Source: a virus. From it: 32,057 nt of DNA. Positions 695-27,696 of this stretch are shown here, piece after piece. Below the pieces are notes generated by a model. The model saw only the letters and a list, made by a program, of their open reading frames with translations, searched no databases and had not been told where the DNA came from. Positions within the stretch are counted from its first letter, which is position 1, and each line of letters starts with the position of its first letter. The position numbers were made by a program, and so were the translations under genes. The DNA lies in the IMG/VR virus record IMGVR_UViG_3300009436_000066, positions 1-32,057 of that record; one strand, 5' to 3'.

Positions 695-3123
695 TACGCT
701 TTCAACTCCTCAACTTCTGCTTTGAGTTCTTTGATTGCCTCAATGAGAAGGGGAACCAGTTTTTCATATCGAACTGCCAGATAACCGTTGTCTCTTTCTG
801 TTACTACGTCAGGAAGTCCCAATGCCTGAACCTCTTGTGCTATGACACCAGTCTCGCTTCCAACTTTATCAGTCTTGTCATTCCAATCAAAGGTGTTACC
901 ACTGAGTGATGCAACCTTGTCAAGAGCGTTGGGGATGGGTGTGATGTTATCCTTTAGTCTTTCGTCAGAAGTAAAGTATGCAGTGATATCACCTGTCGCT
1001 GTAATAGCACCTGTTACAGAAAGACCAGAAGCAACGTTGAGAGTGCCATTAATTTGCCCGTCACCAGTGGCAGCAAGATTACCACCGACAAGGAATGGTG
1101 CTGCCATATAACCTACAATTCCAAGTCCTGCGCCAAGATCACCCAGAGTAAGGATTGGATTAGTTGTGCTATAGTCATTTACAATAAAGTTCATTGTTTG
1201 ACCCGATGCTGCCTGCGTGAGGACAGCAGCGTTATTACCATTAAAACTTATTCTTTCGGAAACATTAACCGTTGATGAAAAGGTTTTCTCTCCAGTAATA
1301 GTTTGTACAGTGTTAGTCGTAACACCATTGGTCACCGATGATGCGTTTCCGTCTAGTGTTGCTGTTATCGTTCCAGCAGTGAAGTCACCAGAAGCATCTC
1401 TAAGAACGATAGTTCCGTTGGTTGTAGTGGAAGCAGTAACACCATTAAGAGTCCCAGCATCACTCGCAAAGGATGCATTTGATGCAGTACCACTAAGGTT
1501 TGCTGATATTGTCCCAGCAGTGAAGTCACCGTTACCATCTCTCAGGACAATCTTAGCATTATCGGTGATGGATGCCGTCACATTGTTAAGTGCTGAAGCG
1601 TTAGAAGCAGTTGTTGCCGTATCAGCATTCCCTGTTAGGTCTCCAGTGAGTCCTCCACTAAAAGTCTGATTTACAGTAAAGATATTATCAGAGTCTAAGT
1701 TGATATGATTATCTTCAACATCAGATATCATAGCAACTATGCCACTCTTGTTAGGCATATCATAAGTTCTTTGTGCGGTAAGTCCGACAAACTTTACTAT
1801 TCCTATGTTTGTGGAGTTAGAAGTATAAGTGTACTCACCGCTAGGGGTGGTAAATTTCATAGCAGCAGTTGACGCAAAGTCTAAGTCTGCACCTGAAGAA
1901 CTAACGCTTGTAACATTTGATAACGCACCCGTTATGTCAGCAGTGCCGTTAAATGGGCGACCCCATATCAGTCTTGAAGTGGTCAACTGATCTGCCTGTG
2001 CTGCGCCACCGCCCGACCCAACAAGATTGTTCCAAGAGGTAACTTCAGTCACCAGTGGTACTTGAAAGGTTGGTGCGACATCAATATTCATTGTCACTGC
2101 GCCAGTGTTTGATAACTGACTTACCGAAAATGCTGGGGAAACTGTTGCGAGGTTCGCAGCAGTAACACCAACACCAACACCACCACCGATTATCGAACCG
2201 TCTACTTGGAGGTCACCTTTGATTATTGTATTAGCACCACCAACCGAACCTAAGTTAACTAACCCAGGTGAAGTGAGATTATTAATTTTTGCACTATCAT
2301 AGTCTGGACCAGCACCTACGAGTGAAGGAATGGTTACCGCGCCATCAGGTGCAATCGTCAATGCTTCAACGTTGGTTGTGCCATTGTAGGAGTTTAAAGT
2401 AAGATTCCAGAGTGGTGGACTGACTTGTGTTTGCTTTGCTTTTATTGAACCAGATTTACTTGTGATAGAGGTTGAACCAGAAGCACCAACTTGTAATGTA
2501 ACTTCTTGGTTAAGGATATTGTCAAGCGCACCAATATCGACCTGAGTTCCACCGAGTTTACCGATACGAACTTGAGATGTATTTGGGTTGGCAGTAGAAC
2601 CTGCACCAACGTATACGTTGGTTCCTGTCAGGGTCATTGCATAATTTGATGTATCAGAGTCAACGAAACTTAGAGTTGTTCCGTATCTAACATCACCATT
2701 TTTAAGATTGAGGTTACCACTATATGATAAAAAATCTCCTTCGGCAAGTGTGACACCAAAGTCACTATCGCCTTGCTGTATGTTTGCATAGTCTAATCTG
2801 TAGTTTACATAATTTACGCCAAATGGTGTCACGCCCGAATTATTGTACGGGTTATCAACAAAGATGCCGCCTTCGGTATCAAGTCCAACATTCTTCAAAT
2901 ACAACCCGTCATACTTTGGCCAAGACTTACCACCCTGTTGCATGACATCAATGGTTCCCCAGTTAGCATCCATCTGCTCATGGGATAAAGAATTACCGTT
3001 GTTCCACTGGTATCCAGTAACTAGGTTTCTTGTTACGACACTGGGTGATGGAGGTGAAGGTTGAGTTCCATTGCCATCTTGCTGTGGTCTTGATGATACT
3101 TTTGTTGGGAGATACTTTGCCAT
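694..3123 (-). CDS. Tail fibre with C-terminal S74 intramolecular chaperone
   Basis: An 809-residue fibre. A flexible N-terminus leads into NGNSLSHEQMDANWGTID, a short module typical of marine phage fibres. The long middle is beta-rich, Ser/Thr/Gly/Asn-rich and nearly Cys-free. A tandem 47-residue repeat near residues 490-585 carries IVLRD(A/G).GDFTAG(T)I. The last 91 residues are a Peptidase_S74 domain. Ser719 and Lys724 in SDERLKDN have the Ser-x4-Lys spacing of the endosialidase auto-cleavage dyad, followed by GVIAQEVQ and a terminal coiled coil (EAIKELKAEVEELKA). In this family the domain trimerises the fibre and then cuts itself off. An AGGA-type ribosome site precedes the ATG, with a degenerate late promoter and a terminator upstream. 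The receptor-binding role is inferred. Confidence 0.93.
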   Translation of the reverse strand: MAKYLPTKVSSRPQQDGNGTQPSPPSPSVVTRNLVTGYQWNNGNSLSHEQMDANWGTIDVMQQGGKSWPKYDGLYLKNVGLDTEGGIFVDNPYNNSGVTPFGVNYVNYRLDYANIQQGDSDFGVTLAEGDFLSYSGNLNLKNGDVRYGTTLSFVDSDTSNYAMTLTGTNVYVGAGSTANPNTSQVRIGKLGGTQVDIGALDNILNQEVTLQVGASGSTSITSKSGSIKAKQTQVSPPLWNLTLNSYNGTTNVEALTIAPDGAVTIPSLVGAGPDYDSAKINNLTSPGLVNLGSVGGANTIIKGDLQVDGSIIGGGVGVGVTAANLATVSPAFSVSQLSNTGAVTMNIDVAPTFQVPLVTEVTSWNNLVGSGGGAAQADQLTTSRLIWGRPFNGTADITGALSNVTSVSSSGADLDFASTAAMKFTTPSGEYTYTSNSTNIGIVKFVGLTAQRTYDMPNKSGIVAMISDVEDNHINLDSDNIFTVNQTFSGGLTGDLTGNADTATTASNASALNNVTASITDNAKIVLRDGNGDFTAGTISANLSGTASNASFASDAGTLNGVTASTTTNGTIVLRDASGDFTAGTITATLDGNASSVTNGVTTNTVQTITGEKTFSSTVNVSERISFNGNNAAVLTQAASGQTMNFIVNDYSTTNPILTLGDLGAGLGIVGYMAAPFLVGGNLAATGDGQINGTLNVASGLSVTGAITATGDITAYFTSDERLKDNITPIPNALDKVASLSGNTFDWNDKTDKVGSETGVIAQEVQALGLPDVVTERDNGYLAVRYEKLVPLLIEAIKELKAEVEELKA
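1371..1652 (-). repeat. Tandem 141-bp (47-codon) coding repeat in the S74 fibre
   Basis: The segment beginning at 1374 recurs at 1515, exactly 141 bases (47 codons) away. Each copy encodes a form of LN.VTAS.T.N..IVLRD followed by GDFTAGTI.A.L.G.AS. The copies differ mainly at third positions and a few residues, so they duplicated some time ago and are held in frame. Such repeats build the fibre shaft. Confidence 0.7.
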
Positions 3124-4239: not shown

Positions 4240-7200
4240 CTATTTAATAGTTCTTCGGGACAATATTCTTCTTGTCTTTGGTTTTCTAATTCTGAATGCT
4301 CTCTTCGTTGGGATCGCATCCTGTTCAATAATGTTCTGATAGACTATCGCGGTAATGCTTGAGTCATCAGATTCTAATATTCCCGAACCTGTAACAGTTC
4401 TCTCTACAGTCCCGATTACAATACTATCAGTTGTATTTAGCACTCCAGAACCAGTGGATGATCTCTCACTAAGTGAGTTCACTACACAGTCTTGAGCAAC
4501 AACGTTACCCGCACCTGTAATTATACGTTCTGAAAGACCCGTCATTTCAACGTCTGTGGATACCAGACTACCTGTTACCGTTATTATTCTCTCGGAGAGA
4601 CCTGTAACGGAAGCATCATCTACAACGATAGGCGTTGCTAATGAATTAGAAGTTCTAAATCCAGCACCCACAACACCAGATGGTTCACATACCACTTTCG
4701 CTCTTGAAGTAATAAGTTTACGTTCACCGTTACCACTCGTAGCAGAGACACTAACATCTCCGTCACTTAGGTCTGCTTCAATCTCAACGATAGTTCTTTC
4801 AGACAGTCCATCAACCGTTGCGGGTTGTGCTTGGGTATCTGCACTCAGAGAGTTGGCATGTCTGACTCCATTACCAACAACCAGCGATGGGGAACATATT
4901 ATGTCGCCCTCATCAACTGTGTTGATAACTTCACCAAGACCCGTAACAAGCGAGGCAGTTGAGGTCAACGATACTTGTGGTCGTATGATTCTTTCTGATA
5001 GACCAACAGCAATTGCAGGTTGTGCTTTCACATCTGCACTTAGGTCGTTAGATACTCTAACTCCGTTACCAACAATCAATGAAGGACTGCATGTCAGGTC
5101 GCCTTCGTCAACCGTATTGATGACTTCACCAAGTCCAGTGGTGGTTGATGGAGATGCTTGCAATGGAGTTGCTAGTCCGTTTGCAGTTCTAAATCCAGCA
5201 CCTACGGCAAGGGCATCAGATGGACTGATGTCGCCTCTTGCAGTATTGATGACTTCACCAAGTCCAGTCACTTGCGACTCTACGACTGTAAGAACACCTG
5301 TTCCAAATAGAACCCTCTCAACATCTCCCACAACAATGGATGGTTGTGATATGACAGTAGCAGCGATTGGGAAGAGTGACCGCTTGGTAACAGCAGCAGT
5401 TGTTGATAGACCCGCTTCAAGTGATATGGCAGGTCTTATTATTCTCTCTGCAACACCAGTGGAGAGCGATTCTGTTGTATCAAGTACTCCAGTGCCAGGG
5501 ATAATATTTTCAGAGAGACCGACTATTACTGACTGCTGACTAACAAGGACACCAGCACCAGTGATAGTATTTTCGGACAGACCAACAACAGTTGCGGGTT
5601 GCGCCTTTGGTGTTGCGTCAAGGGCGTTAGAAGTTCTAACACCTACCGATACGATAGTTGCGTCTTGTGCTTTCGGTGTAGCATCAACTTCAACAATGCT
5701 TCTTTCAGACAGTCCGTCAATGGTCGCAGGTTGCGCTGATAATGTTGGCGTACCCAGAGAGTTAGAATGTCTTACGCCCAGTCCACTAACGAGAGCAGGT
5801 GCGACATTGATATCGGGGATAATCCCGCCTATCCAGTTAGTAGAATCGTAGTTAGCAATTGTAATGTTCTGTGATGTTACTGCCGCGCCCACGCTATTGT
5901 ATGCGAAGAACTTATTCACACTTCCATTATCCATTGGATAGACTAAAGTATTTGAAGACGTTGTATTGTCAACAAACTTCATGTCGAATATTATCTGTGG
6001 CAGAGTCGGTGATGATCCGAGACCGCCAATCGAACGAATCCTTGCATAGGCAGCGGCCGGTTTCAATCCTGTGCTGATGCCTCCTGCTGTCATGACTAAA
6101 CCTGCGGAGGTATTTGATATCGTAACATCAACAGTAGAATTAACCAATGTGGGGATTTGTATCTCAGCAGTCCTAAAGGTCGTTCCAGTGTAGTATCTTA
6201 CGACCAACATTTCGTCAAACTGTTGTGTCTGAGGATTATTGATTCCAGTAACATTGAGACTAAAAGAACCAGCTATGTTTGAAGTTTGCGAAATTAGATA
6301 CCGATAACTAGAAGTTGACCACGCCTTCACGACCCACTTGAATGATATCTCAAAGTCTTGACCTGATGTCCAATCGGTAGGTAACTGCCCACGGGTATTG
6401 GTATCTTGTTGATAGACAAAGGGTACATCTAGTTTGTTTACTGTTCTTTCTGCAAGCGCAACAACCAGTGAAGGACTACATGTCAGGTCGCCCTCATCAA
6501 CGGTATTGATAACTTCACCAAGACCTGTAATAAGCGACTCAGTTGTATCCATCACTCCAGTAGAGTTTATCGTTCTCTCAGATAGACCTGCAACAAGTGA
6601 GTCACTTGTATCCATCGCACCGTCAGCATTGATAATGCGTTCAGACAGTCCTGTAACAAGCGACTCACTTGAGGTCATCGCTCCAGTAGAGTTTATCGTT
6701 CTCTCAGACAGTCCTGTAACAAGCGACCCAGTTGTATCCATCGCACCGTCAGCATTGATAATGCGTTCAGAAAGACCTACGATCAGAGCAGGAGTAGATG
6801 TTAAGTCTGCGGAATCTACCGTGTTAATAACTTCGGCAACGCCTGAGACAAGCGCGTCTGTTGTGCTAGGACCGCCACCCGTACTGGTGGTGGCACTACC
6901 GATACTGTAATTCGTACCGTTACCCAACGAATCACCAGCGACTACTGTTCGTGCATCAACACTACCACCTACGGACACCATCCAAAGGTCTTCTCTGTCG
7001 TTCCATACTATTATATTGAAATTCGATGAATTGACTTCCAGTTGCCAAATTTGGTACAGTCCATCCTCTTGATATACAGGATTCGGAGTATACTCAATAC
7101 TCATTCGTTTATCAGTAAGTGCATATGTACCATTCAGACCATATTGAGATTGGTAACCTGAAAGTGTGAGGTTTGTGCCACTGTATGATATTGTACTACT

Positions 7201-10200
7201 AGCAGTTGGACTATTAGCAGAAGTGCTGATGCCTGATACGATAACAATGCTGCGTTCAGATAAACCATCAACAAGCGAGTCGGTGTTATCAAGTGCGCCT
7301 GTGCTATTGATAGTTCTTTCGGCAAGGGCGACAACCTCTGATGGGGTTGACTGCATGCTACTAGAAGAAGTTATTATGTTCTCTGCGACTGCTGCTACCG
7401 TTGATGGGTCGCTAAGTAATACGCCTTGAGCGTTTATCGTTCTTTCCGCAACACCGCCAATCAGCGCATCGCTTGCTTTCGCAATTGCAACTCCAGTGAA
7501 ACTTCTGTTGATGACTGCTGTAACAATAGAGGGAGTACATTGCAGATTCGCGAATAGATTGTTAATTCCGTTTTCTGCCACACCCGTTATCTTAGAGGGT
7601 TGCGCTTGCAAGTAACCTACTGCCCACGCACCGCGAACTGCACTTCCACTGACGGCAACATCTTGTGCCGCGACTGGTGCGTATTCCATTCCTTTCGGAG
7701 ATTGAATAGTAAGAGTTGTTACTGGTTCTTGTAAGTTTGCAGCATTAGGTAGAGTTATCGTTCCGTTTGCGTTGTAAACTGGTACGCCTGTTATCGTAGC
7801 GCAATACCAAGCGTTTCTTGTAGCGTTCCAATGCATACCCTTAGATGAGGAAGTTCCTGAATTTCTCAGATAAGAGTTGTAGTTAGTGTTATAGGTAAAT
7901 ATCCAATCGCCACCAGACTCTGAAACTGTCCCGCCAAATATCGCTGGCATCAGTTCGCCATTGTATGCAGAGTTACTCATCCCACTCAGTACTGGATATC
8001 TAGGAGTGTAAGACCCTGTGCGAGATGTATAGGTGACCTTGGGCGATACGTCAGAAGGTCCGTATGCAGTCTCACCTGTACCTTCTGGCCAACCATTTAT
8101 GTTGGGAAGTTGATTGATACCCCTTTCACTTATTCCAGAAACTTCGGAAGCATCTCCCTTTATGTTTCCAGTAACAGTGATGATATTTTCAGAGACACCT
8201 TGAACTTGTGATACCGCTGATACTAAATTGCCTACTAATACTACAACGGTTCTTTCAGCGATACCAGATGCAGTTGAAACATCGTCTGGCATATTAACAC
8301 CAGACTCAACTACTACGAGGCGTTCTGCTTCGCCAACAATACTTGATACTTCTGTTTCTAGTATTCCTATGCCTGTAATAATATTTTCTGCAAGTCCAAC
8401 AACAGTAACATCACTTGATTCGAGTCCATCTAATAAGACATTAGATGCTCTAACACCAAGTCCTGAGATGATAGAGTCTGTGCTTTCGAGTTGACCACTT
8501 GAAGTTATTTCGTTCTCTGCCAATCCTACAACCACAACCTCGGTTGACTCTAGAGTAGCGGAACCATTTACTTTTCTCTCTGCTATGGATTCAACTAATC
8601 CATCGGATGCTTTAGGCGTTCCGACAGCATTTATTATTCTCTCGGATAGTCCAGCAACCACCGCATCCGTTGATACGAGTGTGCCACTTGAAGTTATTTC
8701 ATTCTCTGCCAATCCGTCAACTACAGATGCACTTGAAACAAGCGCGGCAGTAGCACCGTTTTGGTCTATGGTTCTTTCAGCAAAACCTTGCAGCACGACA
8801 GGGAAAGTGTCTAGGGTGATATTCATCACTATTGTTCGTTTAGATAGACCCGTAACACTAGACGGTTCAATCTGCGTCAAACCAGTAGCAACAATAATGT
8901 TTTCCGCGACACCTAAGACATTTGATTCGGTTGATGTCAATGCAGCACTTTGTGTAACAACCTTTCTCTCTCCCCTTGCGGAGAAGATGGTGGACGGTTG
9001 AACCTGTGCGATACCAGTAGCAACAATAATGTTTTCGGATGTTCCAACAACAGTTGATGCTTCACTAACAATCCCAACCGATGGGTTGATAATTCTTTCC
9101 GATAGACCAGCAATAATAGATGGCGTTGATACTAAGGATGCAGAAGCGGTGTTGATAACTTCGCCCAGACCAACAACTTCTACCGCATCGCTGACCAGAA
9201 TTCCCGAACCGACTATTAAGTTTTCGGAGACACCAACGACACTGGATGCCTGAGATACAATCACCACAGATGTGACTAGTATTCTCTCGCTTAGTGCATC
9301 AACTAGCGCGTCAGAGGCAACCAGTGATGCCGTAGCACCCCTCTGGTCTATGGTTCTCTCTGCTATTGCATCGACTATGGATGGTTGAGATTCTAATACG
9401 CCAGTGCCAGGGATAGCATTTTCGGATAGACCAATGACTGTAGATGCTTGTGCTTCTATTGAGGCATCAATAACCTTTCTTCTAATTCCAAGTCCTTGAA
9501 CTTCGGATGGATGAGATACAAGCGCACCAGCATCAGACTCAGTTTCTCTTTCAGCAGTACCGACTATTGTAGAACTTTGCGCTTGCAGGATTCCCGTTCC
9601 GTTTATGGCATTTTCGGATAGACCCGTAACTATTGATGCGCTTGTTTCTAATGCGCCTGTTGCAGTGATGACATTCTCAGCAACACCAGACACGCTTGCT
9701 ATCTCAACTTCAAGTGTTCCGCTAGAGTTTATGATTCTCTCAGAGGCACCCTCAATAGTTGCGGCACTTGATATTAATGTGCCAGTGCCTGGAATAACGT
9801 TCTCAACAGTTCCAAGGACGGTCGCGTCTTGAGATTGTATTGATGCTGATATTGTGACTGTTCTCAGTCCAGAACCACCGACTGTCGATTCTTCAGATTG
9901 TAATGTTCCAGAAGCAGTGTTGACGACTTCACCCAGTCCACCAACTATTGATGCGCTTGTTTGCAGCGCACCCGAAGCAAGAATTGCATTTTCAGATAGA
10001 CCAACAACGATGGAGGAAGTAGATGTTAATGCACCAGATGCCGCGATAACATTTTCGGATAGACCGACAACAGTTGATGCCTGTGCCTTCAATAGTCCAT
10101 CTGCAAAGAAGGTTGACTTTTGTCCGTCACCCTCAACACGGGCATCGAATACATAGAGAGTTCCGATTCCTACAACTTGTCGGTTTGATTCACCAGAGAC

Positions 10201-12387
10201 ATTCGCATCTTCAACCTGGGAAATACCAGTAGCATAGTCAGTGAAAGCGGATGCGCCAATAACGAATGATTGCTGTGATACAAGTGTACCGTTGCCCGTA
10301 ACAATATTCTCAGAGGTTCCAGTGACGGACACTGGTTGCATTACCAGTTCAGATATTATTACATATGTATGGACTCCAAGACCACTGGCGTTGGCATCAC
10401 CCACATCTATTACACCAGTCCCAGAAACGGTTCTCTTTGTTTGACCGACAACTTCTGATGACTGCGTGTCCAGTGTTCCAGTTACATTCACTGTTCTTTC
10501 GGATGCACCGAGAACTGTTGATGCTTGTGCTTCAGGTGTTCCAGAACCAGTTGTAATGTTGTCAGATGTGGCGACAACAGTTGATGCTTGTGATTGCAGT
10601 GTTCCTGATGATACTACCGTTCTTTTTATCGTAGCGACAACAGTTGATGCTTGTGCTTCAAGTGTTCCAGAACCAGTTGTAATGTTTTCGGATGTTCCAA
10701 CAACAGTTGACGCTTGTGCTTCCAATGTTCCAGAGGAAGTCATTATTCTTTCAGATAGACCAACAACTTCTGATAACTGTGCTTCCAATGTCCCAGAGGA
10801 AGTCATTATTCTTTCAGATAGACCCTCAACTATTGATACTTGTGATTCTAATGTTCCAGAAGCAATTTCAGCAGGTGCGCCTGTAGCAGACCCATCAACA
10901 TTAGACACTTGTGATTCTAATGTTGCAGTAGAAGTTATCTTTCTTTCAGATAGACCATCAACTATTGATACTTGTGATTCTAATGTTCCAGAAGCATTTA
11001 TTGCGGGTGTGACTCCAGCAGAACCATCAACTATTGATGCTTGTGCTTCTAATGTTCCAGAAGCAGATGTTACTGGTGTGCTTCCACCTACTCCAGATAC
11101 ATCAACAACCTGTGCTTCCAGTATTCCTGAACCAGTTTTAATGTTATCAGATGTAGCAACAACAGTTGATGCTTGTGATTGCAGTGTTCCAGTAGAAGTT
11201 ATCTTTCTTTCTGATGAACCACCTACCGTTGATGCTTGTGATTCTACAACACCAGTCCCTGTTTTAGAGTTTTCGGATAGTCCATCAACTTCTGATACCT
11301 GTGCTTCCAGAGTTCCACTTGAAGTTACACTTCTCTCAGAGAGACCATTTACTGTGGCGACTTCTGCTTGGAGACTTCCACTACCAACTGTAATATTATC
11401 AGATATAGCAGTGATAGTTGATGATTGCGCTTCCAACGCCCCGCTTGATATCAACTTTCTTTCAGAAGAACCGCCAACTGTTGATACTTGTGATTCTACT
11501 ACACCAATCGCTGTCTTAGAGTTTTCAGCAATAGAAGAAACCCCAGATGCTTGCACTTCCAGTGCGCCAGAACCTGTATGGTTATCTACAGCAAGACCAC
11601 TAACCGTTGACGCTTGCGCTTCAAGAGTTCCCGAACCAGTTATTGCGGGTGTGGTTGCAGCAGAACCATCGACTGTCGATACTTGTGCTTGTAGTGTTCC
11701 AGAACCGACACGCATTGGTTCAGATACACCAACTATCAATGATGCTTGCGCCTCTAGTATTCCTGATGCTGACATCTCTCTTTCAGATGCGCCCACAACG
11801 GTAACAATCTGTGCTGCCAGTATTCCAGAACCAGTTATTGCGGGTGTGGTTGCAGCAGAACCAGCGACCTCTGATACCTGTGCTTCCAGTGTGCCTGTTG
11901 AGGTCATCTCTCTTTCTGATGAACCACCTACTGTTGATGCTTGCGACTCGGTAACACCAGTTCCTGTTTTAGAGTTTTCAGCAGTAGAAGAAACTTCGGA
12001 GACTTGTGCCTGTAATCCACCTGTTGCTATCTTAGAGTTTTCGGCAGAACCACCTACTGTTGATGCCTGTGCTTCCAGTGTGCCTGACGCAGTTATGATA
12101 TTTTCTGCTGCACCGACAACAGTAGATGCTTGTGCTTCTAGTGTGCCTGATGCAGTGAATGTTTCGGATACCGATGCTGCACCAACCACTGTTGATACTT
12201 GGTCTTGGAGTTGTCCTGACGCTGATCCACCAGCAGCTCTGATGCCGACATAGAAACCACTCGACAAGACTTCTACATAGTTGGAACCATCCTCAACATA
12301 AACATAACCGTTGTCACTGGTGTAACTTAGACCAGTTGTCGCGGATGCTTGCGCTTGAGGTGTTCCTGATGCTGAATGATCGGCCAA
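4240..12387 (-). CDS. Giant repetitive fibre protein (2715 residues)
   Basis: An 8.1-kb gene built from a 21-residue unit, consensus SGTLEAQASTVVGLSE followed by four or five variable residues. By eye there are about 90-100 copies. Three non-repeat inserts interrupt them near residues 1425-1580, 1717-1841 and 1980-2195; a short one (NGYVYVEDGSNYVEVLSSG) lies near residues 25-55. N-terminal units are the most alike; later ones form subfamilies such as GLSERIINADGAMDTT and DEGDLTCSPSLVV. The last 21 residues are highly basic (KRAFRIRKPKTRR, then ILSRRTIK). The start is TTG at 12387: an in-frame TAA lies three codons upstream, no ATG is nearby, and AGAG precedes it. A late promoter lies 36 bases upstream. 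It has no signal peptide or enzyme motif. A long tail fibre is the likeliest role; the repeat fold is unknown to me. Confidence 0.88.
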   Translation of the reverse strand: MADHSASGTPQAQASATTGLSYTSDNGYVYVEDGSNYVEVLSSGFYVGIRAAGGSASGQLQDQVSTVVGAASVSETFTASGTLEAQASTVVGAAENIITASGTLEAQASTVGGSAENSKIATGGLQAQVSEVSSTAENSKTGTGVTESQASTVGGSSEREMTSTGTLEAQVSEVAGSAATTPAITGSGILAAQIVTVVGASEREMSASGILEAQASLIVGVSEPMRVGSGTLQAQVSTVDGSAATTPAITGSGTLEAQASTVSGLAVDNHTGSGALEVQASGVSSIAENSKTAIGVVESQVSTVGGSSERKLISSGALEAQSSTITAISDNITVGSGSLQAEVATVNGLSERSVTSSGTLEAQVSEVDGLSENSKTGTGVVESQASTVGGSSERKITSTGTLQSQASTVVATSDNIKTGSGILEAQVVDVSGVGGSTPVTSASGTLEAQASIVDGSAGVTPAINASGTLESQVSIVDGLSERKITSTATLESQVSNVDGSATGAPAEIASGTLESQVSIVEGLSERIMTSSGTLEAQLSEVVGLSERIMTSSGTLEAQASTVVGTSENITTGSGTLEAQASTVVATIKRTVVSSGTLQSQASTVVATSDNITTGSGTPEAQASTVLGASERTVNVTGTLDTQSSEVVGQTKRTVSGTGVIDVGDANASGLGVHTYVIISELVMQPVSVTGTSENIVTGNGTLVSQQSFVIGASAFTDYATGISQVEDANVSGESNRQVVGIGTLYVFDARVEGDGQKSTFFADGLLKAQASTVVGLSENVIAASGALTSTSSIVVGLSENAILASGALQTSASIVGGLGEVVNTASGTLQSEESTVGGSGLRTVTISASIQSQDATVLGTVENVIPGTGTLISSAATIEGASERIINSSGTLEVEIASVSGVAENVITATGALETSASIVTGLSENAINGTGILQAQSSTIVGTAERETESDAGALVSHPSEVQGLGIRRKVIDASIEAQASTVIGLSENAIPGTGVLESQPSIVDAIAERTIDQRGATASLVASDALVDALSERILVTSVVIVSQASSVVGVSENLIVGSGILVSDAVEVVGLGEVINTASASLVSTPSIIAGLSERIINPSVGIVSEASTVVGTSENIIVATGIAQVQPSTIFSARGERKVVTQSAALTSTESNVLGVAENIIVATGLTQIEPSSVTGLSKRTIVMNITLDTFPVVLQGFAERTIDQNGATAALVSSASVVDGLAENEITSSGTLVSTDAVVAGLSERIINAVGTPKASDGLVESIAERKVNGSATLESTEVVVVGLAENEITSSGQLESTDSIISGLGVRASNVLLDGLESSDVTVVGLAENIITGIGILETEVSSIVGEAERLVVVESGVNMPDDVSTASGIAERTVVVLVGNLVSAVSQVQGVSENIITVTGNIKGDASEVSGISERGINQLPNINGWPEGTGETAYGPSDVSPKVTYTSRTGSYTPRYPVLSGMSNSAYNGELMPAIFGGTVSESGGDWIFTYNTNYNSYLRNSGTSSSKGMHWNATRNAWYCATITGVPVYNANGTITLPNAANLQEPVTTLTIQSPKGMEYAPVAAQDVAVSGSAVRGAWAVGYLQAQPSKITGVAENGINNLFANLQCTPSIVTAVINRSFTGVAIAKASDALIGGVAERTINAQGVLLSDPSTVAAVAENIITSSSSMQSTPSEVVALAERTINSTGALDNTDSLVDGLSERSIVIVSGISTSANSPTASSTISYSGTNLTLSGYQSQYGLNGTYALTDKRMSIEYTPNPVYQEDGLYQIWQLEVNSSNFNIIVWNDREDLWMVSVGGSVDARTVVAGDSLGNGTNYSIGSATTSTGGGPSTTDALVSGVAEVINTVDSADLTSTPALIVGLSERIINADGAMDTTGSLVTGLSERTINSTGAMTSSESLVTGLSERIINADGAMDTSDSLVAGLSERTINSTGVMDTTESLITGLGEVINTVDEGDLTCSPSLVVALAERTVNKLDVPFVYQQDTNTRGQLPTDWTSGQDFEISFKWVVKAWSTSSYRYLISQTSNIAGSFSLNVTGINNPQTQQFDEMLVVRYYTGTTFRTAEIQIPTLVNSTVDVTISNTSAGLVMTAGGISTGLKPAAAYARIRSIGGLGSSPTLPQIIFDMKFVDNTTSSNTLVYPMDNGSVNKFFAYNSVGAAVTSQNITIANYDSTNWIGGIIPDINVAPALVSGLGVRHSNSLGTPTLSAQPATIDGLSERSIVEVDATPKAQDATIVSVGVRTSNALDATPKAQPATVVGLSENTITGAGVLVSQQSVIVGLSENIIPGTGVLDTTESLSTGVAERIIRPAISLEAGLSTTAAVTKRSLFPIAATVISQPSIVVGDVERVLFGTGVLTVVESQVTGLGEVINTARGDISPSDALAVGAGFRTANGLATPLQASPSTTTGLGEVINTVDEGDLTCSPSLIVGNGVRVSNDLSADVKAQPAIAVGLSERIIRPQVSLTSTASLVTGLGEVINTVDEGDIICSPSLVVGNGVRHANSLSADTQAQPATVDGLSERTIVEIEADLSDGDVSVSATSGNGERKLITSRAKVVCEPSGVVGAGFRTSNSLATPIVVDDASVTGLSERIITVTGSLVSTDVEMTGLSERIITGAGNVVAQDCVVNSLSERSSTGSGVLNTTDSIVIGTVERTVTGSGILESDDSSITAIVYQNIIEQDAIPTKRAFRIRKPKTRRILSRRTIK
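5800..6440 (-). other. Insert 3 of the giant protein: LamG-like module
   Basis: Around residues 1980-2195 the repeats give way to a globular beta-rich domain: WTSGQDFEISFKWVV, a central RYYTGTTFRTAEIQIP, then IIFDMKFVDN and LVYPMDNGSVNKFFAYNSVG. The end of the module matches two modules in the wedge protein at 25306-27696 (YPMREGSGDIFKAY and YPMQDGTGTTMLAY). The strand pattern suggests a concanavalin/LamG-like jelly roll, a fold that often binds sugars. Confidence 0.6.
6865..7235 (-). other. Insert 2 of the giant protein: unknown small domain
   Basis: Residues of about 1717-1841 contain no repeats. They read as a compact beta domain: LTLSGYQSQYGLNGTYALTD, then YQIWQLEVNSSNFNIIVWND and REDLWMVSVGG. 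The pattern 'GLNGTY ... W.L......IIVWN....W.VS' suggests a small domain of the kind found in phage and marine bacterial surface proteins. I cannot name the family. Confidence 0.5.
7650..8110 (-). other. Insert 1 of the giant protein: unknown small domain
   Basis: Residues of about 1425-1580 form a non-repeat block with GDWIFTYNTNYNSYLRNSG, KGMHWNATRNAWYC and YNANGTITLPNAANLQEPVT. The mix of Trp, Tyr and Asn differs sharply from the Ser/Thr/Val/Gly repeats around it. It looks like a separately acquired ligand-binding or spacer domain; the family is unknown to me. Confidence 0.5.
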
Positions 12388-20546: not shown

Positions 20547-21176
20547 CTACCAGAATTTATCTATTTTAATAAAACATGAATCACCAGCAGATAAACTGCC
20601 ATCGCCATATATCTCTGCTGAATTGGCATCGAACCACCAATAGTCGGATGAGTCAGGTGCGAATATGTATGTAGTTGGAAATCTATCCCCTGCTATTGGA
20701 GAAGTTCCGTTTGGTGGATTAGATTTAGTTTTGAAATACAAGTTTCCTGTATACTGTCCGACAACTTTGTAACTTCCAAGAGAAGAATCACTCGCCTTCT
20801 GGTACATGGTTAACGTGGTTGCAGTTGTAACGGAATCATATATTCCAGATGTTCCGTTCCAGTCTTTTTGAACGCTAATAGTTTTTACTGAACCCAATTG
20901 GTCTGACTGAGAAATGCGGAAGTTAACAAAGTTCTTCATATTGGTTGGGGAAGTGCTGTAGGCATTCACCACACCAGAGGAAGGTTTAGAATAAGCATCA
21001 GTAACCGTACCAACCACAAAGGATTTACCTGGCCAGTCGTCCGAACTATTATAAGCAGACTGCCAAAGGGAGGCGAAGTTATTGTTTATTTTATCTGCGG
21101 CATCGCGCAAACTATCGCCTGTGCCATCGTTTGCCATTGCACCATTCGAAATAGTTTGTTGTGTTGGTATTGCCAT
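20547..21176 (-). CDS. Small structural protein with NDGTGDSLRDAADKINNNF module
   Basis: A 209-residue protein. Residues of about 8-40 (ISNGAMANDGTGDSLRDAAD, then KINNNFASLW) form a module at the start of many fibre and baseplate-linked proteins in T4-like phages, probably a virion attachment element. The rest is a beta-rich domain ending SSDYWWFDANSAEIYGDG and CFIKIDKFW. It is the first gene after a perfect late promoter, with a leader of about 26 bases and an AGAG site before the ATG. A tail-surface or baseplate-adaptor role is likely; I cannot assign it to a T4 gene. Confidence 0.78.
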   Translation of the reverse strand: MAIPTQQTISNGAMANDGTGDSLRDAADKINNNFASLWQSAYNSSDDWPGKSFVVGTVTDAYSKPSSGVVNAYSTSPTNMKNFVNFRISQSDQLGSVKTISVQKDWNGTSGIYDSVTTATTLTMYQKASDSSLGSYKVVGQYTGNLYFKTKSNPPNGTSPIAGDRFPTTYIFAPDSSDYWWFDANSAEIYGDGSLSAGDSCFIKIDKFW

Positions 21177-21207
21177 GAATCTATTCTCTTTTGTTATCCT
21201 ATGGGTT

Positions 21208-21215
21208 TATTTATA
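21208..21215 (-). promoter_or_regulatory. T4-type late promoter
   Basis: A perfect GTATAAATAAA on the minus strand. Transcription would begin near 21202, 26 bases before the ATG at 21176. The motif also supplies the last three codons (TAT AAA TAA) of the remnant reading frame after the spike gene. Confidence 0.85.
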
Positions 21216-21251
21216 CAACTTCTTATGGACTATTCTGTTTGAATAACCCCC

Positions 21252-21278
21252 TTCAACATATATATCGGGGAAAGTCAT
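21252..21278 (-). repeat. 27-bp direct repeat, copy C (after the spike stop)
   Basis: Identical to copy B at 24117-24143 except for one base (GAT for GAC). It encodes MTFPDIYVE in the same frame as the spike gene but after its stop codon. Together with copies A and B it brackets the spike's head region. Confidence 0.9.
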
Positions 21279-21287
21279 ACCAACAAC

Positions 21288-24200
21288 TTACGTCAACTCT
21301 CTCATCACTGGTGGGTACACTGAGTATCTAAGATTTCCAGTTCTACTAGCAGCAGCTTGATTGTTGTAAATGTAAGTACCATGAGTTGTAGAACCATTTA
21401 GGTTTGAATTGTTAGTTGCTACATCGTAAGTTTCGGAGAACGTTGCCCCGCCTTCAGTAGTAGTTAAAGGTATCAAGGTAGAACTGTATTGATTATCTGG
21501 TGTTATCAATGCAGTTTGATCGGGTCTTATTCCCGCATAACATCTCAATATTCCGTCTTTAACTTCCATAACCAATCTAACTTCAACTCCATCAGTATGC
21601 GGGAATGGTGCGCTAATTCCTTTGAGTGTTCTATCTGTTGGTTGTCGCCCAACTTCAAACAGTGCGAGGTAAGATGCATTTCCTGCTGCTCCAGCATACC
21701 AAACGAAACTTAATCCGAATTCGGAAACAGCACTATTCATACAGATTAGAGGACCACCCGATACTCTATGATCTCCAGACCAAGGTTCTTGTACAGACAC
21801 GTTAGAAAACCCTGTATCTATATACCCAACTGCCCTACTGGTCATAAGGGCAGAAGTACTCGGTGCGGCAATCGTCCAACTTGTTTTTTCCCAGTATTCT
21901 AATGATGGGTCATTCTGAAGACCCTGAACTGTTGCGGCTTCCCAATATGTACTCTGTCCACTTATGTTATGTGCGGAACTATATAGTGGCATGTCTGTCT
22001 GCGTATCATTAGTAGTAAAACCTATGTCTGTGTTGTAAACACCACTCGCTTCACCGATAAATTTGGTGGCGATATCCCTTCCTACAGGCGTGACACCAGT
22101 CGGCCAGAAGTTCCACATATCACTTTCATTTGGAAAGTTACCTGCGGCAAAGTATGTTTGGTTAGAAATCACATCAACGACAGGTTGACCGCCAGTAGTA
22201 TGAGCAATCGTGGTGTTCTTCGCCTTGTAAGGACCGTAATCACTTGCTGGCAAATCAGACGCTGTGTTAGGTTGCCATTGCGTGTTGTTTGTTGATGTCC
22301 TAAAGACGTTTCCTTGTAGGTCGTAATCATACCCTTGGATCGGAAGAATTTCTAAATATACAAAGTATTTAAACCGATAGTTTGCTGAAGGTTCTGTGAG
22401 TTTAATTCCACCATATGGTATGTCAAATCTGTTGTCTTTAATAAGTATATTCTGTTGACGGGCAGGTGGCGTTGCACAACTCAGGAATGGGTTTGGTAAA
22501 GCAGACGTTGGGGTCTGTATGGCATAAGTCGAACCATTACGAGGCGTAGTGCCAAACTCAGGACCACTCCCCTCAAAAATTTCAATAACGCTGCTTTTAT
22601 TGGTATCTGGTCCTGATATGAATTTGGAGTTTTTAATCACAACATTTCCAGCATCTCCCCTAATTGATATTGACCGCGAACCTGGATTATATGCTGACAT
22701 ATTATCAACTAAGACATTACGAGCATCACTGATTCCCATACTACCACCAAAGTTACGGGAAGCGTCATCATTGTAACTTATATGATTTAAGATACTAACG
22801 TTACGAATATAGTGACCGATAGTAATACCAGCACCCCTGTTGTTATGACTAACACAATCCAGCAGTGTAATATTCAAACCTGATGTTAAGTCGAAACCAT
22901 TCTCCCTGTTATCTGAAGAGCTGCAGCGCACAACTTCATGGTTTGGACCTACGTCATCATATCGCGTGAAACCATTATTGTTTGGATCATAATAACCACC
23001 GTTCTTGTGGAACACAATTCCGTCATTATTTCTAGTCCTTTTAACATGACAGTCTTGCGTCAACGAGTTAGTTACTGGGAAACCTCTATTACTTCCTGGG
23101 TCTCCGTTTGCATATGCATCAAAGTCTCCCCTTGATCCAAAGAACCCAAAACCGTTATTGGTATTGTCGGTGGCAGAACTATTATTAAGGAAATAATATT
23201 CTCCAATATTGAATGATGTTGCTGTGCGACAATATTTAAACAGGGAAGAGTTAACAGTAATGTAACTACACCAGTCATTAACGTTCCCAGTTCCTTCCCC
23301 AAGTGCTTCCCAGGTAACACCTCTACCAGCACTACCCATAACAGTTCCACCAACGCAGATGAATGCAATATTGTTAACTGACAGATAATCGCATCGTTTC
23401 ATTGAGAGGACGCTTTTGTTATCACAGAATTCCATGTGTCGCGTACTCATGTTTTCACCAGCGTTAGGGTAATAATAAATCTTGTTTGCATCACACCACC
23501 ATTCACCTGCCACTAAGTCTGCTGGGTCTGAAAGAGAACGCCATGTCAAAGAGTGCGCTCGCTTCACTGCCATTATACCATCAGCAGTCCATTCGGATGC
23601 AGTACATCCAAACAGTTGTGCCTTGGTTGGACTGGTTGATGGATGCGGATTTGTGGCTTCATATACATTTGTATAAACAGATGATAATGTCCAACCCGTT
23701 TGAGTTACTGCATTCGTAATATATGTATTGGGATACTGAGTAGTCGGTCTATCTGGATACCCACCGAGGTAAGCAGTGGAATTTGGGTCACCGTCCAAAG
23801 ATATTGGGTTGAGTGCCGTACCACGTTTATTACTCACATAAACTGTACCGATGCCTGATGTATTAATCCTGTATGGATTTTGAGGACCGTTGTCGATGCC
23901 TATCGTATTGTAACCTGGAACCAATCCATCAGTCAATGCTTTGTCTACGCTTGCCCAAGGGTTTGCCGCGCTACCGTCACCAGTTGCGTCATTACCCAAG
24001 AGGTTGTCATAGTAATATGTCCCAAGCATTACAGGTTGCAGACCGTCAACACCTGAACTAGATGATTCTAAATCACCACTTCCAGTGTGCGTTTGTATTG
24101 CAGTCCTGATAACACCTTCAACATATATGTCGGGGAAAGTCATTTCAACATATATGTCGGGAGAGGGCATGCCCACATAAGGTTCAATGGTATTTCCAGC

Positions 24201-25301
24201 ACCATCAACTGTTGATGCTTGTGCTTCGAGTGTTCCCGCACCGATCACTTTATTTTCTGCCAGACCGTCAACGCTTGATGCTTGCGCCTCAAGTGTTCCA
24301 GAACCAGTTATAATATTTTCAGATAGACCATCAACAGTCGATACTTGTGCTTGGAGTGTGCCTGTTGAGGTTATCTCTCTTTCAGATGCACCAACAACAG
24401 TAGATGCTTGTGCCTCTAGAGTTCCAGTTGCATCCCGATCTTCTATTGATGTACCAAAAACCGTTGATGCTTGCGCTTCCAGTGTTCCCGAACCAATTAT
24501 TGCAGGCGTTATTGAACCAGCACCATCAACTGTTGATGCCTGTGCCTCAAGTGTTCCAGAACCAGTTGCAATATTTTCAGATGTAGCAGTAACAGTTGAT
24601 GCTTGCGCCTCAAGTGTTCCAGAACCATCAACCCCGCGCCCTGATAGACCATCCACTATTGATGATTGTGCTTGCAGGTTTGCTAATATAGAATTAGCAC
24701 CCCTTCCCACTATTGCTGTGACAGTAGCATCGGTTGACACTAGAGCAGAAGATGTTCTAATTTCTCTTTCAGATAAACCATCTACAACAGACCGCGATAC
24801 TGTCAGTGCGCTATTAACAGTTACTCCTCTATCTCCATCGCCAACAACGGTAGAGACTGTAGTTGTGAGCGCACCAAGTGCAGCAATAATATTTTCGGAT
24901 AGACCATCAACAGTTGCAGGACTTGCTTTAAAGTTTGATACACCAATGGAGTATATTGGTGGTTGTTCTCTTCCAGGTCTTTCTGGACGGAAATCTAATT
25001 CGTCACCCAGCATGTTATTTCCATAACCATCCGAGTCTCTTTGTAACCAGTGATTTTCATCCATGCGATTTATAGTATTAGAGAAGTCAGTAAAACCTGA
25101 ATGGACTCCATCAAAATCTGCATCAAATGTTCTAGACTGAATAAGGTCTAGTGCCGCAACATCTTTATATTGCGTATTAAGTTCTGCGATACTAAATCTG
25201 CCACCTTGCGGAGCATCACTATCCGACATATTAGATATGTCATTTATCCTAGAACGATATACTATTCCAGTAAAAAGAGGATCGGTGTTATCTGACGGCA
25301 T
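21288..25301 (-). CDS. Tail fibre/spike with repeat stalk and beta-helix head
   Basis: A 1337-residue protein. Residues 1-120 are a unique, probably virion-anchoring region (FTGIVYRSRINDISNMSDSD). Residues of about 121-377 hold 12 units of the 21-residue repeat seen in the giant protein (GSGTLEAQASTVDG). Residues 378-396 are a doubled PDIYVE motif. From about 427, NDATGDGSAANPWASVDKAL opens a right-handed beta-helix like polysaccharide lyases and phage spikes, with coils such as NHEVVRCSSSDNRENGFDL, NITLLDCVSHNNRGAGITIG and NVSILNHISYNDD. The last 250 or so residues form another beta domain. No catalytic residues can be assigned, so it may bind or cut polysaccharide. A strong AGGAGGGG site precedes the ATG. 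Confidence 0.88.
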   Translation of the reverse strand: MPSDNTDPLFTGIVYRSRINDISNMSDSDAPQGGRFSIAELNTQYKDVAALDLIQSRTFDADFDGVHSGFTDFSNTINRMDENHWLQRDSDGYGNNMLGDELDFRPERPGREQPPIYSIGVSNFKASPATVDGLSENIIAALGALTTTVSTVVGDGDRGVTVNSALTVSRSVVDGLSEREIRTSSALVSTDATVTAIVGRGANSILANLQAQSSIVDGLSGRGVDGSGTLEAQASTVTATSENIATGSGTLEAQASTVDGAGSITPAIIGSGTLEAQASTVFGTSIEDRDATGTLEAQASTVVGASEREITSTGTLQAQVSTVDGLSENIITGSGTLEAQASSVDGLAENKVIGAGTLEAQASTVDGAGNTIEPYVGMPSPDIYVEMTFPDIYVEGVIRTAIQTHTGSGDLESSSSGVDGLQPVMLGTYYYDNLLGNDATGDGSAANPWASVDKALTDGLVPGYNTIGIDNGPQNPYRINTSGIGTVYVSNKRGTALNPISLDGDPNSTAYLGGYPDRPTTQYPNTYITNAVTQTGWTLSSVYTNVYEATNPHPSTSPTKAQLFGCTASEWTADGIMAVKRAHSLTWRSLSDPADLVAGEWWCDANKIYYYPNAGENMSTRHMEFCDNKSVLSMKRCDYLSVNNIAFICVGGTVMGSAGRGVTWEALGEGTGNVNDWCSYITVNSSLFKYCRTATSFNIGEYYFLNNSSATDNTNNGFGFFGSRGDFDAYANGDPGSNRGFPVTNSLTQDCHVKRTRNNDGIVFHKNGGYYDPNNNGFTRYDDVGPNHEVVRCSSSDNRENGFDLTSGLNITLLDCVSHNNRGAGITIGHYIRNVSILNHISYNDDASRNFGGSMGISDARNVLVDNMSAYNPGSRSISIRGDAGNVVIKNSKFISGPDTNKSSVIEIFEGSGPEFGTTPRNGSTYAIQTPTSALPNPFLSCATPPARQQNILIKDNRFDIPYGGIKLTEPSANYRFKYFVYLEILPIQGYDYDLQGNVFRTSTNNTQWQPNTASDLPASDYGPYKAKNTTIAHTTGGQPVVDVISNQTYFAAGNFPNESDMWNFWPTGVTPVGRDIATKFIGEASGVYNTDIGFTTNDTQTDMPLYSSAHNISGQSTYWEAATVQGLQNDPSLEYWEKTSWTIAAPSTSALMTSRAVGYIDTGFSNVSVQEPWSGDHRVSGGPLICMNSAVSEFGLSFVWYAGAAGNASYLALFEVGRQPTDRTLKGISAPFPHTDGVEVRLVMEVKDGILRCYAGIRPDQTALITPDNQYSSTLIPLTTTEGGATFSETYDVATNNSNLNGSTTHGTYIYNNQAAASRTGNLRYSVYPPVMRELT
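24117..24143 (-). repeat. 27-bp direct repeat, copy B
   Basis: This encodes MTFPDIYVE (spike residues 387-395). It is tandem with copy A and differs by one base from copy C, 2.9 kb away after the spike stop. Confidence 0.9.
24144..24170 (-). repeat. 27-bp direct repeat, copy A
   Basis: This encodes MPSPDIYVE (spike residues 378-386). It abuts copy B head to tail; they differ mainly in the second to fourth codons. Confidence 0.88.
24175..24940 (-). repeat. Array of about 63-bp coding repeats in the spike stalk
   Basis: Twelve in-frame units of about 63 bases (one 69-base variant) encode SGTLEAQASTV.G.SE-type repeats. They match those of the giant gene at 4240-12387, including the longer variant with TPAI.GSGTLE. 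Units nearer the anchor are more diverged than those nearer the head. Confidence 0.9.
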
Positions 25302-25305
25302 TGGT

Positions 25306-27696
25306 CTACGCCCCTCCTGATTCTAAAAAGTTTTTACTGACCCATTCACCACTACCCAGAATGATAGCATCCTGTGATGCGCCTGCTGCAATACCAAACT
25401 GATCGTATGCCAACATAGTTGTCCCTGTACCATCTTGCATTGGATAATAGCGCGAATTCGCACCATCTCTTAATTCCAGATTCCACACTGTTGCAGTGAG
25501 AGCTGTACCAGTAATGTAATTAATCTTGGCAATTTCAAGAGGTGTGACCAAGGATTCTATTGTGCTGGAAACACCATTTTGCAGACTTGTTATTGTAACT
25601 CTATCTATTGAATGCTGAATCTGAACATAGACGCTTTCATCAACCTGTAGATTGTCTATTTGAACAGTTGTAGTTCCTCCAGCGTCTTGGTAAACATATT
25701 CTAGTATATTTTCGCTAGTTACTTTAAGACCAACAGTCTGATTATTATTGTCCCACAATAACAGAGATTCGATTCCTGAAAAAGTGGATACACTTAGATA
25801 TAAATTGATACCGAATCCTGTTGCGTTGATGCTCGTCCATTCTGGTACACTGATATTGTTACCTTTCCATAAGGCAGTAAGTGGAGCAGACCATGCACCG
25901 CGATCCGATGAAGGCAGTGGGATATCTTTATTCACAAATCTATTTCCGTTATCTGCATACGCTTTGAAGATGTCTCCAGAACCTTCTCTCATAGGATACT
26001 GTATAACGTTTGATCTGTTCGTTGCATCTTGCAAGACAACTTCCCATATGCTGCCGTAGAAATTGTCACCTATCGCATCCACTCTTGGGTAGTATTCTAC
26101 GGCAGCAGAGTAGACACTATTTATGCCATCCGAACTAACGAATATCTGAGTAGATGTAACCAAGACCTGAATGTTATGGTTTGTGCCTAGCAGCACATTC
26201 TGTATCGCATCAACATCAACTATATTCAAGGTCGTTTGTTCCACATATCTATAGACCAATCTGTTTGGCGTTGCTGCTGGGAAAACAAGACCGTGTTTTA
26301 GTCCACCAACCGTTGCGCTAAACAACCACTGGTCTTCGGTGTTCATCTCTCGTCTGTTAAAGACGAGACTCACTACCCCGTTCACCTGACCATCCCATGT
26401 CTGTGGTAATGTTAAGTCACCATCGCTCATATTAAAAACAAATTCAGATGGTTCTGGTTTAACTTCTGGTTGCCTAACATTAAATTCAGTAACTTCACCA
26501 TATGCAAAGTCATCAACTGTTCCGACACCTTCGTAGTCAAGATCGTACATCTCTGTACTTGTAGGCAGAGCAGATAGACCGACACCACTAACGCTTTCTA
26601 TTAACACTTCACCCGCCAAGTACATACCTGAAGGATGAATAAAATCTTTGTAAACATCTTTCCAAGCATTTACGGCAATGGGTGTTTTAATAAGAATAGA
26701 GAACATCTGGTAATAGGCATTATCAGTTATTCGTTTGTCGCCAATGTCAGCACCTATTGGCGAACCAGCAGGAAATCTTCTTGTCGTTTCAATCCTAGAC
26801 TTCGGATATCTCATAGGACCGAAAGGTTCACCAGAGTAATCCAATTCTCTACTAGGCGGTGCAATTTCTCCAAACTCAGCAAGGTGGTCTAACCAAGGGT
26901 CACCTTTCTTTAGAGAATTCTCTAGTCCTGCCTTAATAAAAACAATGGTCTTGCTATCATATTCCACAACGTAGTCTATGTTTTCTCTAAGAAGAAACCA
27001 AACATTGTAAGTAGTTTTTATTGCAGTCCTTATGATATAGTCGGTCTGCCCCTCGTCATCAATGTAGTTGTTGACAAAGGGAGTTTCTCTGATATAGAGT
27101 GAAGGTACAACCTCAGTCTTTGGTGTTAAGGCAAGTGCGTACACTTGTATTACACCGTCTTGAAAGTTGAACTTGAGTCTATCTCCAGGAAAAAGAACGT
27201 TAACATCATTCCCATTCGCGTCTGTCCCACCTGAACGATACTCTGATGTGTAAAGTAACTTCTCCTGCGCGGGATCACCAACAGTAAATATCTCGTTGCG
27301 ACCATACCTAATATTAATATCAAACCCAAAGAATATTCTAAAGAATTGTTCAATGGAAAATGATGTTCCTTTTGAACGATACAGAAGGTTTGATATTTGT
27401 ATTGCGGATTCTTTGTCCGAAAAACTCTCGGTATAATCTTTACCAAGAAACAGTTCTTCTCCAATGAATCGGAGAAGATGGGGAGTTACATCTGCCAAGT
27501 CCCTGTTGTGTTGCAGTTCATTCAGGAACTTAGCAGGACTATCATCACCATCATAATTCTGATAGTATGAAGAAAGGAACTCCACAAACTTTGGATAGAT
27601 TGACTCAAAGTGTGCTGGCAGACTATTGCTGACAGGAAACTTATCTAACTTTAAAGGAAGACGGTATTGGTCAGTAAGAGTTTTATCAAGACTCAT
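25306..27696 (-). CDS. Baseplate wedge-type protein with two LamG-like modules
   Basis: A 796-residue protein. Residues of about 1-400 are a helical/beta region beginning LTDQYRLPLKLDKFPVSNSL, with HFESIYPKFVEFLSSYYQNY and GTSFSIEQFFRIFFGFDINI. This looks like a conserved virion protein of marine T4-like phages. The position after gp6 and before gp8 is that of gp7 in T4, but I see no sequence proof of gp7. Residues of about 410-590 and 600-785 are two related beta modules, each ending in YPM(R/Q)(E/D)G.G......AY, with a third relative in the giant protein. These are probably LamG/concanavalin-like and may bind surface sugars. The ATG lies 3 bases after the gp6 stop; the gene is followed 4 bases later by the spike gene, which suggests that the two assemble together. 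Confidence 0.82.
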   Translation of the reverse strand: MSLDKTLTDQYRLPLKLDKFPVSNSLPAHFESIYPKFVEFLSSYYQNYDGDDSPAKFLNELQHNRDLADVTPHLLRFIGEELFLGKDYTESFSDKESAIQISNLLYRSKGTSFSIEQFFRIFFGFDINIRYGRNEIFTVGDPAQEKLLYTSEYRSGGTDANGNDVNVLFPGDRLKFNFQDGVIQVYALALTPKTEVVPSLYIRETPFVNNYIDDEGQTDYIIRTAIKTTYNVWFLLRENIDYVVEYDSKTIVFIKAGLENSLKKGDPWLDHLAEFGEIAPPSRELDYSGEPFGPMRYPKSRIETTRRFPAGSPIGADIGDKRITDNAYYQMFSILIKTPIAVNAWKDVYKDFIHPSGMYLAGEVLIESVSGVGLSALPTSTEMYDLDYEGVGTVDDFAYGEVTEFNVRQPEVKPEPSEFVFNMSDGDLTLPQTWDGQVNGVVSLVFNRREMNTEDQWLFSATVGGLKHGLVFPAATPNRLVYRYVEQTTLNIVDVDAIQNVLLGTNHNIQVLVTSTQIFVSSDGINSVYSAAVEYYPRVDAIGDNFYGSIWEVVLQDATNRSNVIQYPMREGSGDIFKAYADNGNRFVNKDIPLPSSDRGAWSAPLTALWKGNNISVPEWTSINATGFGINLYLSVSTFSGIESLLLWDNNNQTVGLKVTSENILEYVYQDAGGTTTVQIDNLQVDESVYVQIQHSIDRVTITSLQNGVSSTIESLVTPLEIAKINYITGTALTATVWNLELRDGANSRYYPMQDGTGTTMLAYDQFGIAAGASQDAIILGSGEWVSKNFLESGGA

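Follow-up and report, generated by a model that had tools for sequence, protein, structure and literature searches.

The window analysed here, from a marine T4-like phage, is an IMG/VR contig of 32,057 bases, in which the relevant genes all lie on the minus strand (Table 1). It carries a T4-like baseplate region with gp25/gp6-like, gp53-like, spike, gp9/10-like and gp8-like genes and a gene for a DUF4815 protein. The gp25 label is provisional, given from gene position and our own reading of the sequence, and for gp6 the closest match among cultured records is Phage C48C1 (Kyanoviridae; 36%). The architecture of the spike (gene A) is modular, with a baseplate anchor, a repeat stalk, a short tip motif and a predicted beta-helix head with a C-terminal domain, the last of which showed no Pfam match. 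The 21-residue repeat of the spike stalk also makes up most of a 2715-codon ORF at 4240-12387 (minus strand), which contains several non-repeat insertions and has no Pfam match; the long antisense ORFs across the same interval are repeat artefacts. A fibre-like protein of 809 codons, encoded at 694-3123 (minus strand), has a Peptidase_S74 chaperone domain at its C-terminus (E=2e-16).

Table 1. Features of the spike locus and its flanking genes in the window
Feature	Position	Strand	Remarks
gp53-like baseplate wedge gene, upstream anchor	25306..27696	-	PF23786 E=9e-11
Spike gene A	21288..25301	-	1337 codons; flanked by gp53-like and gp9/10-like genes
Spike N-terminal conserved domain (baseplate side), 115 residues	24957..25301	-	69-75% identity, five relatives
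Spike stalk, 21-residue (63-bp) repeats ..SGTLEAQASTVDG..	24183..24956	-	Direct repeats at 63-nt spacing; sequence reading
Tip repeat copy A (MPSPDIYVE)	24144..24170	-	ATGCCCTCTCCCGACATATATGTTGAA
Tip repeat copy B (MTFPDIYVE)	24117..24143	-	ATGACTTTCCCCGACATATATGTTGAA
Tip-head linker	24036..24107	-	3' end GVDGLQ opens the conserved zone holding the L008/L011 swap border
Head, predicted right-handed beta-helix region	21756..24032	-	Pfam Beta_helix; strand-ladder model; Foldseek match
Head C-terminal domain, LamG-like by appearance only	21288..21755	-	Conserved in L007, L008, L011, L113, L116
Head-module stop codon and 3' tail TAAGTTGTTGGTATG	21276..21290	-	Common to L008 only
Relic of headless stalk end, including copy C, read MTFPDIYVEG[+1 G]VIQTE-stop	21230..21278	-	26/27 to copy B; aligns to L011 gene B end
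Repeat copy C	21252..21278	-	ATGACTTTCCCCGATATATATGTTGAA
T4-type late promoter of the next gene	21208..21215	-	TATAAATA; conserved before gp9/10 in relatives
gp9/10-like baseplate gene, downstream anchor for finding relatives	20547..21176	-	phrog_677 E=4e-8; PF07880 21.7 bits, below cut-off 25

Three copies of a 27-bp repeat and a late promoter at the spike end

The three 27-bp copies described in an earlier sequence-only reading of the window were all recovered, two of them, A and B, as adjoining copies within the spike gene and the third, C, past its stop codon. Copies A and B differ at 4 of 27 bases, and copies B and C, which are 2865 nt apart, differ at a single base, as had been reported. 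With up to three mismatches allowed to the degenerate tip motif, four matches were found in the window against 0.16 expected from shuffles, and the three good ones are copies A, B and C. Copy C begins 9 nt past the spike TAA and shares the reading frame of the spike, also as reported; the 13 sense codons counted after it are in fact 14 (GGYSNRIVHKKLYK), followed by TAA. A recombinant between copies B and C would, as predicted, have 409 codons and end GYSNRIVHKKLYK.

The last codons of this frame, TTG TAT AAA TAA, had been overlooked as a regulatory element: they constitute the late promoter TATAAATA. The window contains six copies of this octamer, each on the coding strand; the expectation for both strands together is 1.3. 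The promoter block AAGTTGTATAAATAAAC.CATAG precedes the gp9/10-like gene in close relatives, and KLYK-stop also occurs 3' of the second stalk gene (gene B, see below) in two relatives, L008 and L011. Since the octamer is a T4-type late promoter and the block is conserved before gp9/10 in relatives, KLYK-stop is promoter DNA read as codons.

Scattered occurrence of the PDIYVE motif as a common short repeat was ruled out by the pattern matches in IMG/VR, among which the tip motif in a tail-gene context was confined to this spike gene of close relatives; the remaining matches encode nothing related.

Relatives with and without the head

Relatives of the locus were collected by IMG/VR searches with the spike N-terminus, the gp9/10-like protein and the head; for the gp9/10-like protein a single-sequence search was used, and the profile search was swamped by distant T4-like phages. 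Only a small number of relatives emerged, every one of them a metagenome contig (designated here by L numbers). Public phage genomes searched with the locus, the head, the spike N-terminus and the gp9/10 protein gave no match or only a distant one, and a search of genome contigs gave no relative.

Among the headed relatives, L008, L009 and L011 have a GTLEAQ-type stalk, the tip PYVGMPFPQIYVGMPFPEIYVDGV and the head, followed by gene B. L113/L114 and L116 have the same N-terminus where it is present, a different stalk and a head directly before gp9/10. In the divergent L122 (gp6 49%; head 68% to L011), the head stands at the end of the gp53-like protein: gp53 and spike are fused, a single ORF (L122:8339-12352) running from the gp53-like protein through a short stretch resembling the spike N-terminus and a stalk to the beta-helix head. 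The tip is dispensable for head attachment, since L113, L116 and L122 have a head but no tip motif.

Headless spikes are found in L010 (212 codons, ending EPYVGMPSPAIYVGMPFPAIYVGGVLQVPPVDPQ) and L127 (483 codons, ending LPYITMATGELYVEMPGTLYVRNVTK), and also in L115 and L126, which have the other stalk type; the head of L113 and L116 is borne on a stalk of this L115/L126 type. L007 retains the tip and the head C-terminal domain without the helix. At L007:2185-2300, the stalk and the head C-terminal domain are joined out of frame and the whole beta-helix is gone, by real loss or by an assembly fault; because an out-of-frame join may be such a fault, no firm conclusion was rested on the helix loss of L007.

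The tandem tip is conserved in L007-L011 as PYVGMPFPxIYVGMPFPxIYVxGV. Gene B (L008:13391-14641, L011:14022-15203), which occurs in only three IMG/VR contigs, has an unrelated N-terminus and reads MAWRNVANN...DDIYVIGELQPE in L008 and L011; its end, TPYVYMEGGEVYDYMGPDDIYVIGELQPE, is a variant of the gene A tip. Because the L010 and L127 spikes and gene B of L008 and L011 all end at the tip or at a variant of it, the tip is a natural end point for stalk proteins of these phages.

Exchange and loss of the head among related backbones

L008 and L011 are closely related in gp8 (97%), gp53 (92.5%), the spike N-terminus (96.5%) and gene B (92%), and their helices share only 60% amino acid identity (63% nt). 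The helix of L008 is 82% identical to that of the window at the amino acid level (87% nt), and the two phages are 65-80% identical in gp53, gp8, gp9/10 and the spike N-terminus. The 115 N-terminal residues of the spike thus follow the backbone genes (73-75% for the window). The head tree and the gp8+gp9/10 tree conflict, both at full support, and by the AU test each alignment rejects the grouping found with the other (p=2.8e-9 for the head, p=7.7e-6 for the backbone).

The L008 swap is the only one with mappable borders. On the left, the L008 tip is L011-like and the window, L008 and L011 are all highly alike through GVDGLQPVMLGTYYYDN, past which L008-L011 identity collapses within about 180 nt; this puts the border at the start of the head, some 100-200 nt 3' of the tip. 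To the right, the window agrees with L008 through TTGACGTAAGTTGTTGGTRTG, just past the stop codon, after which L008 resumes the L011-type spacer; the post-stop tail TAAGTTGTTGGTRTG of L008 is common to the window only. Between these two borders, the module comprises the head from its start, the stop codon and a short stretch beyond it. Nearly the same borders apply to L115, which is without the module: at the point where its spike ends, L113 and L116 continue with the lead-in to INYLDN, and immediately beyond the head stop the L115 DNA again corresponds to theirs. L009 and L008 align without gaps for 14,134 bases at 99.7% identity, which counts against a chimeric assembly.

The head is therefore an exchangeable and losable module among these relatives. 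The sequence-only reading had proposed to look for relatives with a different head or none, and both kinds exist: the head is swapped between L008, L011 and the window, and missing in L010, L115, L126 and L127, so that relatives do not all carry the same head. Its further proposal, that the head was inserted at or exchanged through the repeats, holds in part. The headless spikes of L010 and L127 do end at the tip, but the L008 swap border is not at the repeats. As the L008 tip is of the backbone (L011) type, with borders 3' of the tip and past the stop, the 27-bp repeats are better seen as a scar than as a proven site of exchange.

The relic of a headless end after the stop codon

The same reading took GYSNRIVHKKLYK as the former C-terminus of the spike. 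This was rejected on the basis of the homologous ends in relatives, which read ...IYV.G..QPE-stop, and of the overlap of its last codons with the promoter; a spike ending SNRIVHKK was found in none of the relatives compared. Read one frame over after a run of five Gs, the DNA from copy C onwards gives PDIYVEGVIQTE and a stop, which matches IYVGGVIQPE of L007 and IYVIGELQPE-stop of gene B. Copy C and the DNA downstream (GATATATATGTTGAAGGGGGTTATTCAAACAGAATAGTCCATAAG) align to the gene B end of L011 (GACATATATGTTATTGGTGAACTCCAACCAGAATAGTCCATAAA), and none of 500 shuffles reached the alignment score, with or without the promoter; the stop region, AGAATAGTCCATAA, is like that of L011 gene B. Because L010, L127 and gene B of L008 and L011 genuinely end at the tip, copy C is the relic of a headless end. 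The core of the earlier proposal is thereby upheld: the tip repeat marks a former C-terminus, and the DNA of the old end persists downstream of the spike.

L010 carries a mirror-image scar. Shortly past the stop of its headless gene, CPNLLMDLE-stop occurs in frame and matches the head end YPDLLMDLG-stop of L007 and L011, a relic of the last codons of the head. Both outcomes have thus left scars, a head before an old headless end in the window and a headless gene before an old head end in L010.

Origin of the relic

We favour, with modest confidence, a history in which the head is a mobile module and copy C is what remains of the spike's own former headless end. An ancestral spike, or a sister stalk gene, would have ended at the tip with ...PDIYVEGVIQTE, and a head module bringing its own stop codon and about 12 nt of 3' tail would have been joined in front of this old end. 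The tip would thereby have been doubled, leaving copy B inside the gene and copy C behind it as a non-coding relic, which would later have drifted out of frame, with the late promoter of the next gene retained. The head moves between related phages by recombination, and a single site in the gene would serve for its gain or loss. The headless ancestor may have been gene A itself, and the join may have formed by microhomology at (GTTG)..ATG; a short word seems to be shared by the window tail (GTTGGTATG), the L008 tail (GTTGGTGTG) and the context of copy B (GTTGAAATG), and a join at this word would fit either gene A or gene B as the source. The spike's own end is favoured because copy C and copy B of the window share MTFP, whose T occurs in no relative (the relatives have MPFP), and agree at 26 of 27 bases.

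The head would also be mobile if copy C represented the last codons of a downstream gene B, lost when the A-B spacer (GTTGGTRTG) recombined with the B tip, a course of events that we consider rather unlikely. The relic occupies exactly the position of the gene B end in L008 and L011, its stop region, the post-stop DNA and the following promoter match gene B of these two phages, and the window has the same head type as L008 and the same 3' tail as far as GTTGGTRTG. Against this stands the coding part of the relic, GMTFPDIYVEGVIQ, which resembles gene A tips, whereas gene B ends MGPDDIYVIGELQ; moreover, no other trace of gene B was seen in the window. That copies B and C serve as a present-day switch, dropping the head in part of the population to give the 409-codon headless spike, is permitted by their geometry and agrees with the existence of headless relatives, but we regard it as highly improbable: no relative examined has the C-terminus predicted for such a spike, and such a product would end in 14 extra residues translated from the frameshifted relic and from promoter DNA. 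In addition, the near-identical pairs L008/L009 (99.7%) and L113/L114 (100%) all retain the head and give no sign of rapid switching, these phages being without copy C and outside the window's own population. That a short DNA word recurs by chance or was duplicated locally, without connection to the history of the head, is conceivable in that the copy is only 27 bp long and two-copy families can be accidental; it is scarcely credible given the excess of motif matches over shuffles (4 against 0.16) and a homology to stalk-gene ends that extends beyond the repeat, across the stop region and as far as the promoter, with a score that shuffles fail to reach even when the promoter is left out.

Beyond the origin of the spike's own relic, a wider picture can be drawn, which we put forward as a doubtful one. 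A portable head would be put on and shed at one fixed point on at least three carriers (the repeat stalk, a propeller-type stalk and the gp53-like protein), often enough that reciprocal scars stay readable, and headed and headless spikes would coexist in the same population as two adsorption strategies.

Predicted fold and role of the head

Sequence and model both point to a right-handed beta-helix fold for the head. Pfam Beta_helix matched the window head at E=9e-4, below the gathering cut-off, and its L011 homologue at E=4e-7, above it. The predicted structure contains a strand ladder at about residues 170-580, in a model of low confidence (mean pLDDT overall only 42). In a Foldseek search with this low-confidence model, the best PDB fold match was the Klebsiella K1 capsule lyase 7w1c (E=2e-4, 12% identity, TM-score 0.17-0.24), followed by other beta-helix carbohydrate enzymes and tailspikes. 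A PDB sequence search with the head yielded no convincing direct relative, and a fold search of viral models gave no match at E<=0.001. By analogy with such proteins, the head and its C-terminal domain most likely bind or cleave host surface polysaccharide. The K1 capsule-specific polysaccharide lyase shares the right-handed beta-helix, but at this level of identity and TM-score enzymatic activity of the head is not implied.

Comparison with known exchange of adhesive modules

Exchange of adhesive-tip modules is known among phages, and the join is usually invisible. The locus is a case of ordinary modular evolution, by a known process, with unusually readable scars. It constitutes a natural record of uncultured marine phages gaining and losing a likely host-recognition part, with the swap borders mapped in L008, and exact module boundaries are now available for testing the role of the head.

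In the account of Tetart 1998 given in PMC3797505, the distal tail fibre adhesins gp37/gp38 of T-even phages swap via recombination between conserved motifs. There as here, a tip adhesin of a T4-type phage is exchanged and the structural part stays, with conserved stretches at the borders; relative to that account, the present protein is a different spike, next to gp53, with a predicted beta-helix head and with presence or absence of the whole head accompanied by reciprocal scars. Fibritin (wac) is likewise a stalk protein of T4-like phages with replaced C-terminal domains, alien ones being found on a conserved N-terminus and shaft (PMC3797505). However, fibritin is a coiled-coil collar fibre whose swaps are described as ancient, whereas here near-identical backbones differ in their heads. 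In the beta-helix tailspikes of E. coli phages, which also combine a conserved anchor with a horizontally moved binding domain, conserved DNA motifs before and after the binding domain are proposed hotspots (PMC10408124). No sequence relation to these tailspikes was detected, and the downstream element here is a headless-end relic with a late promoter, not a terminator.

Other variation next to the spike

A C-terminal extension of about 376 residues is present on the gp53-like protein of the window, L007, L008, L011 and L113 and absent from that of L010 (L010:989-2239) and L127 (L127:8297-9571), forming a second presence/absence module that adjoins the spike. L127 also carries two adjoining gp9/10-like genes (L127:11073-12425), apparently a duplication.
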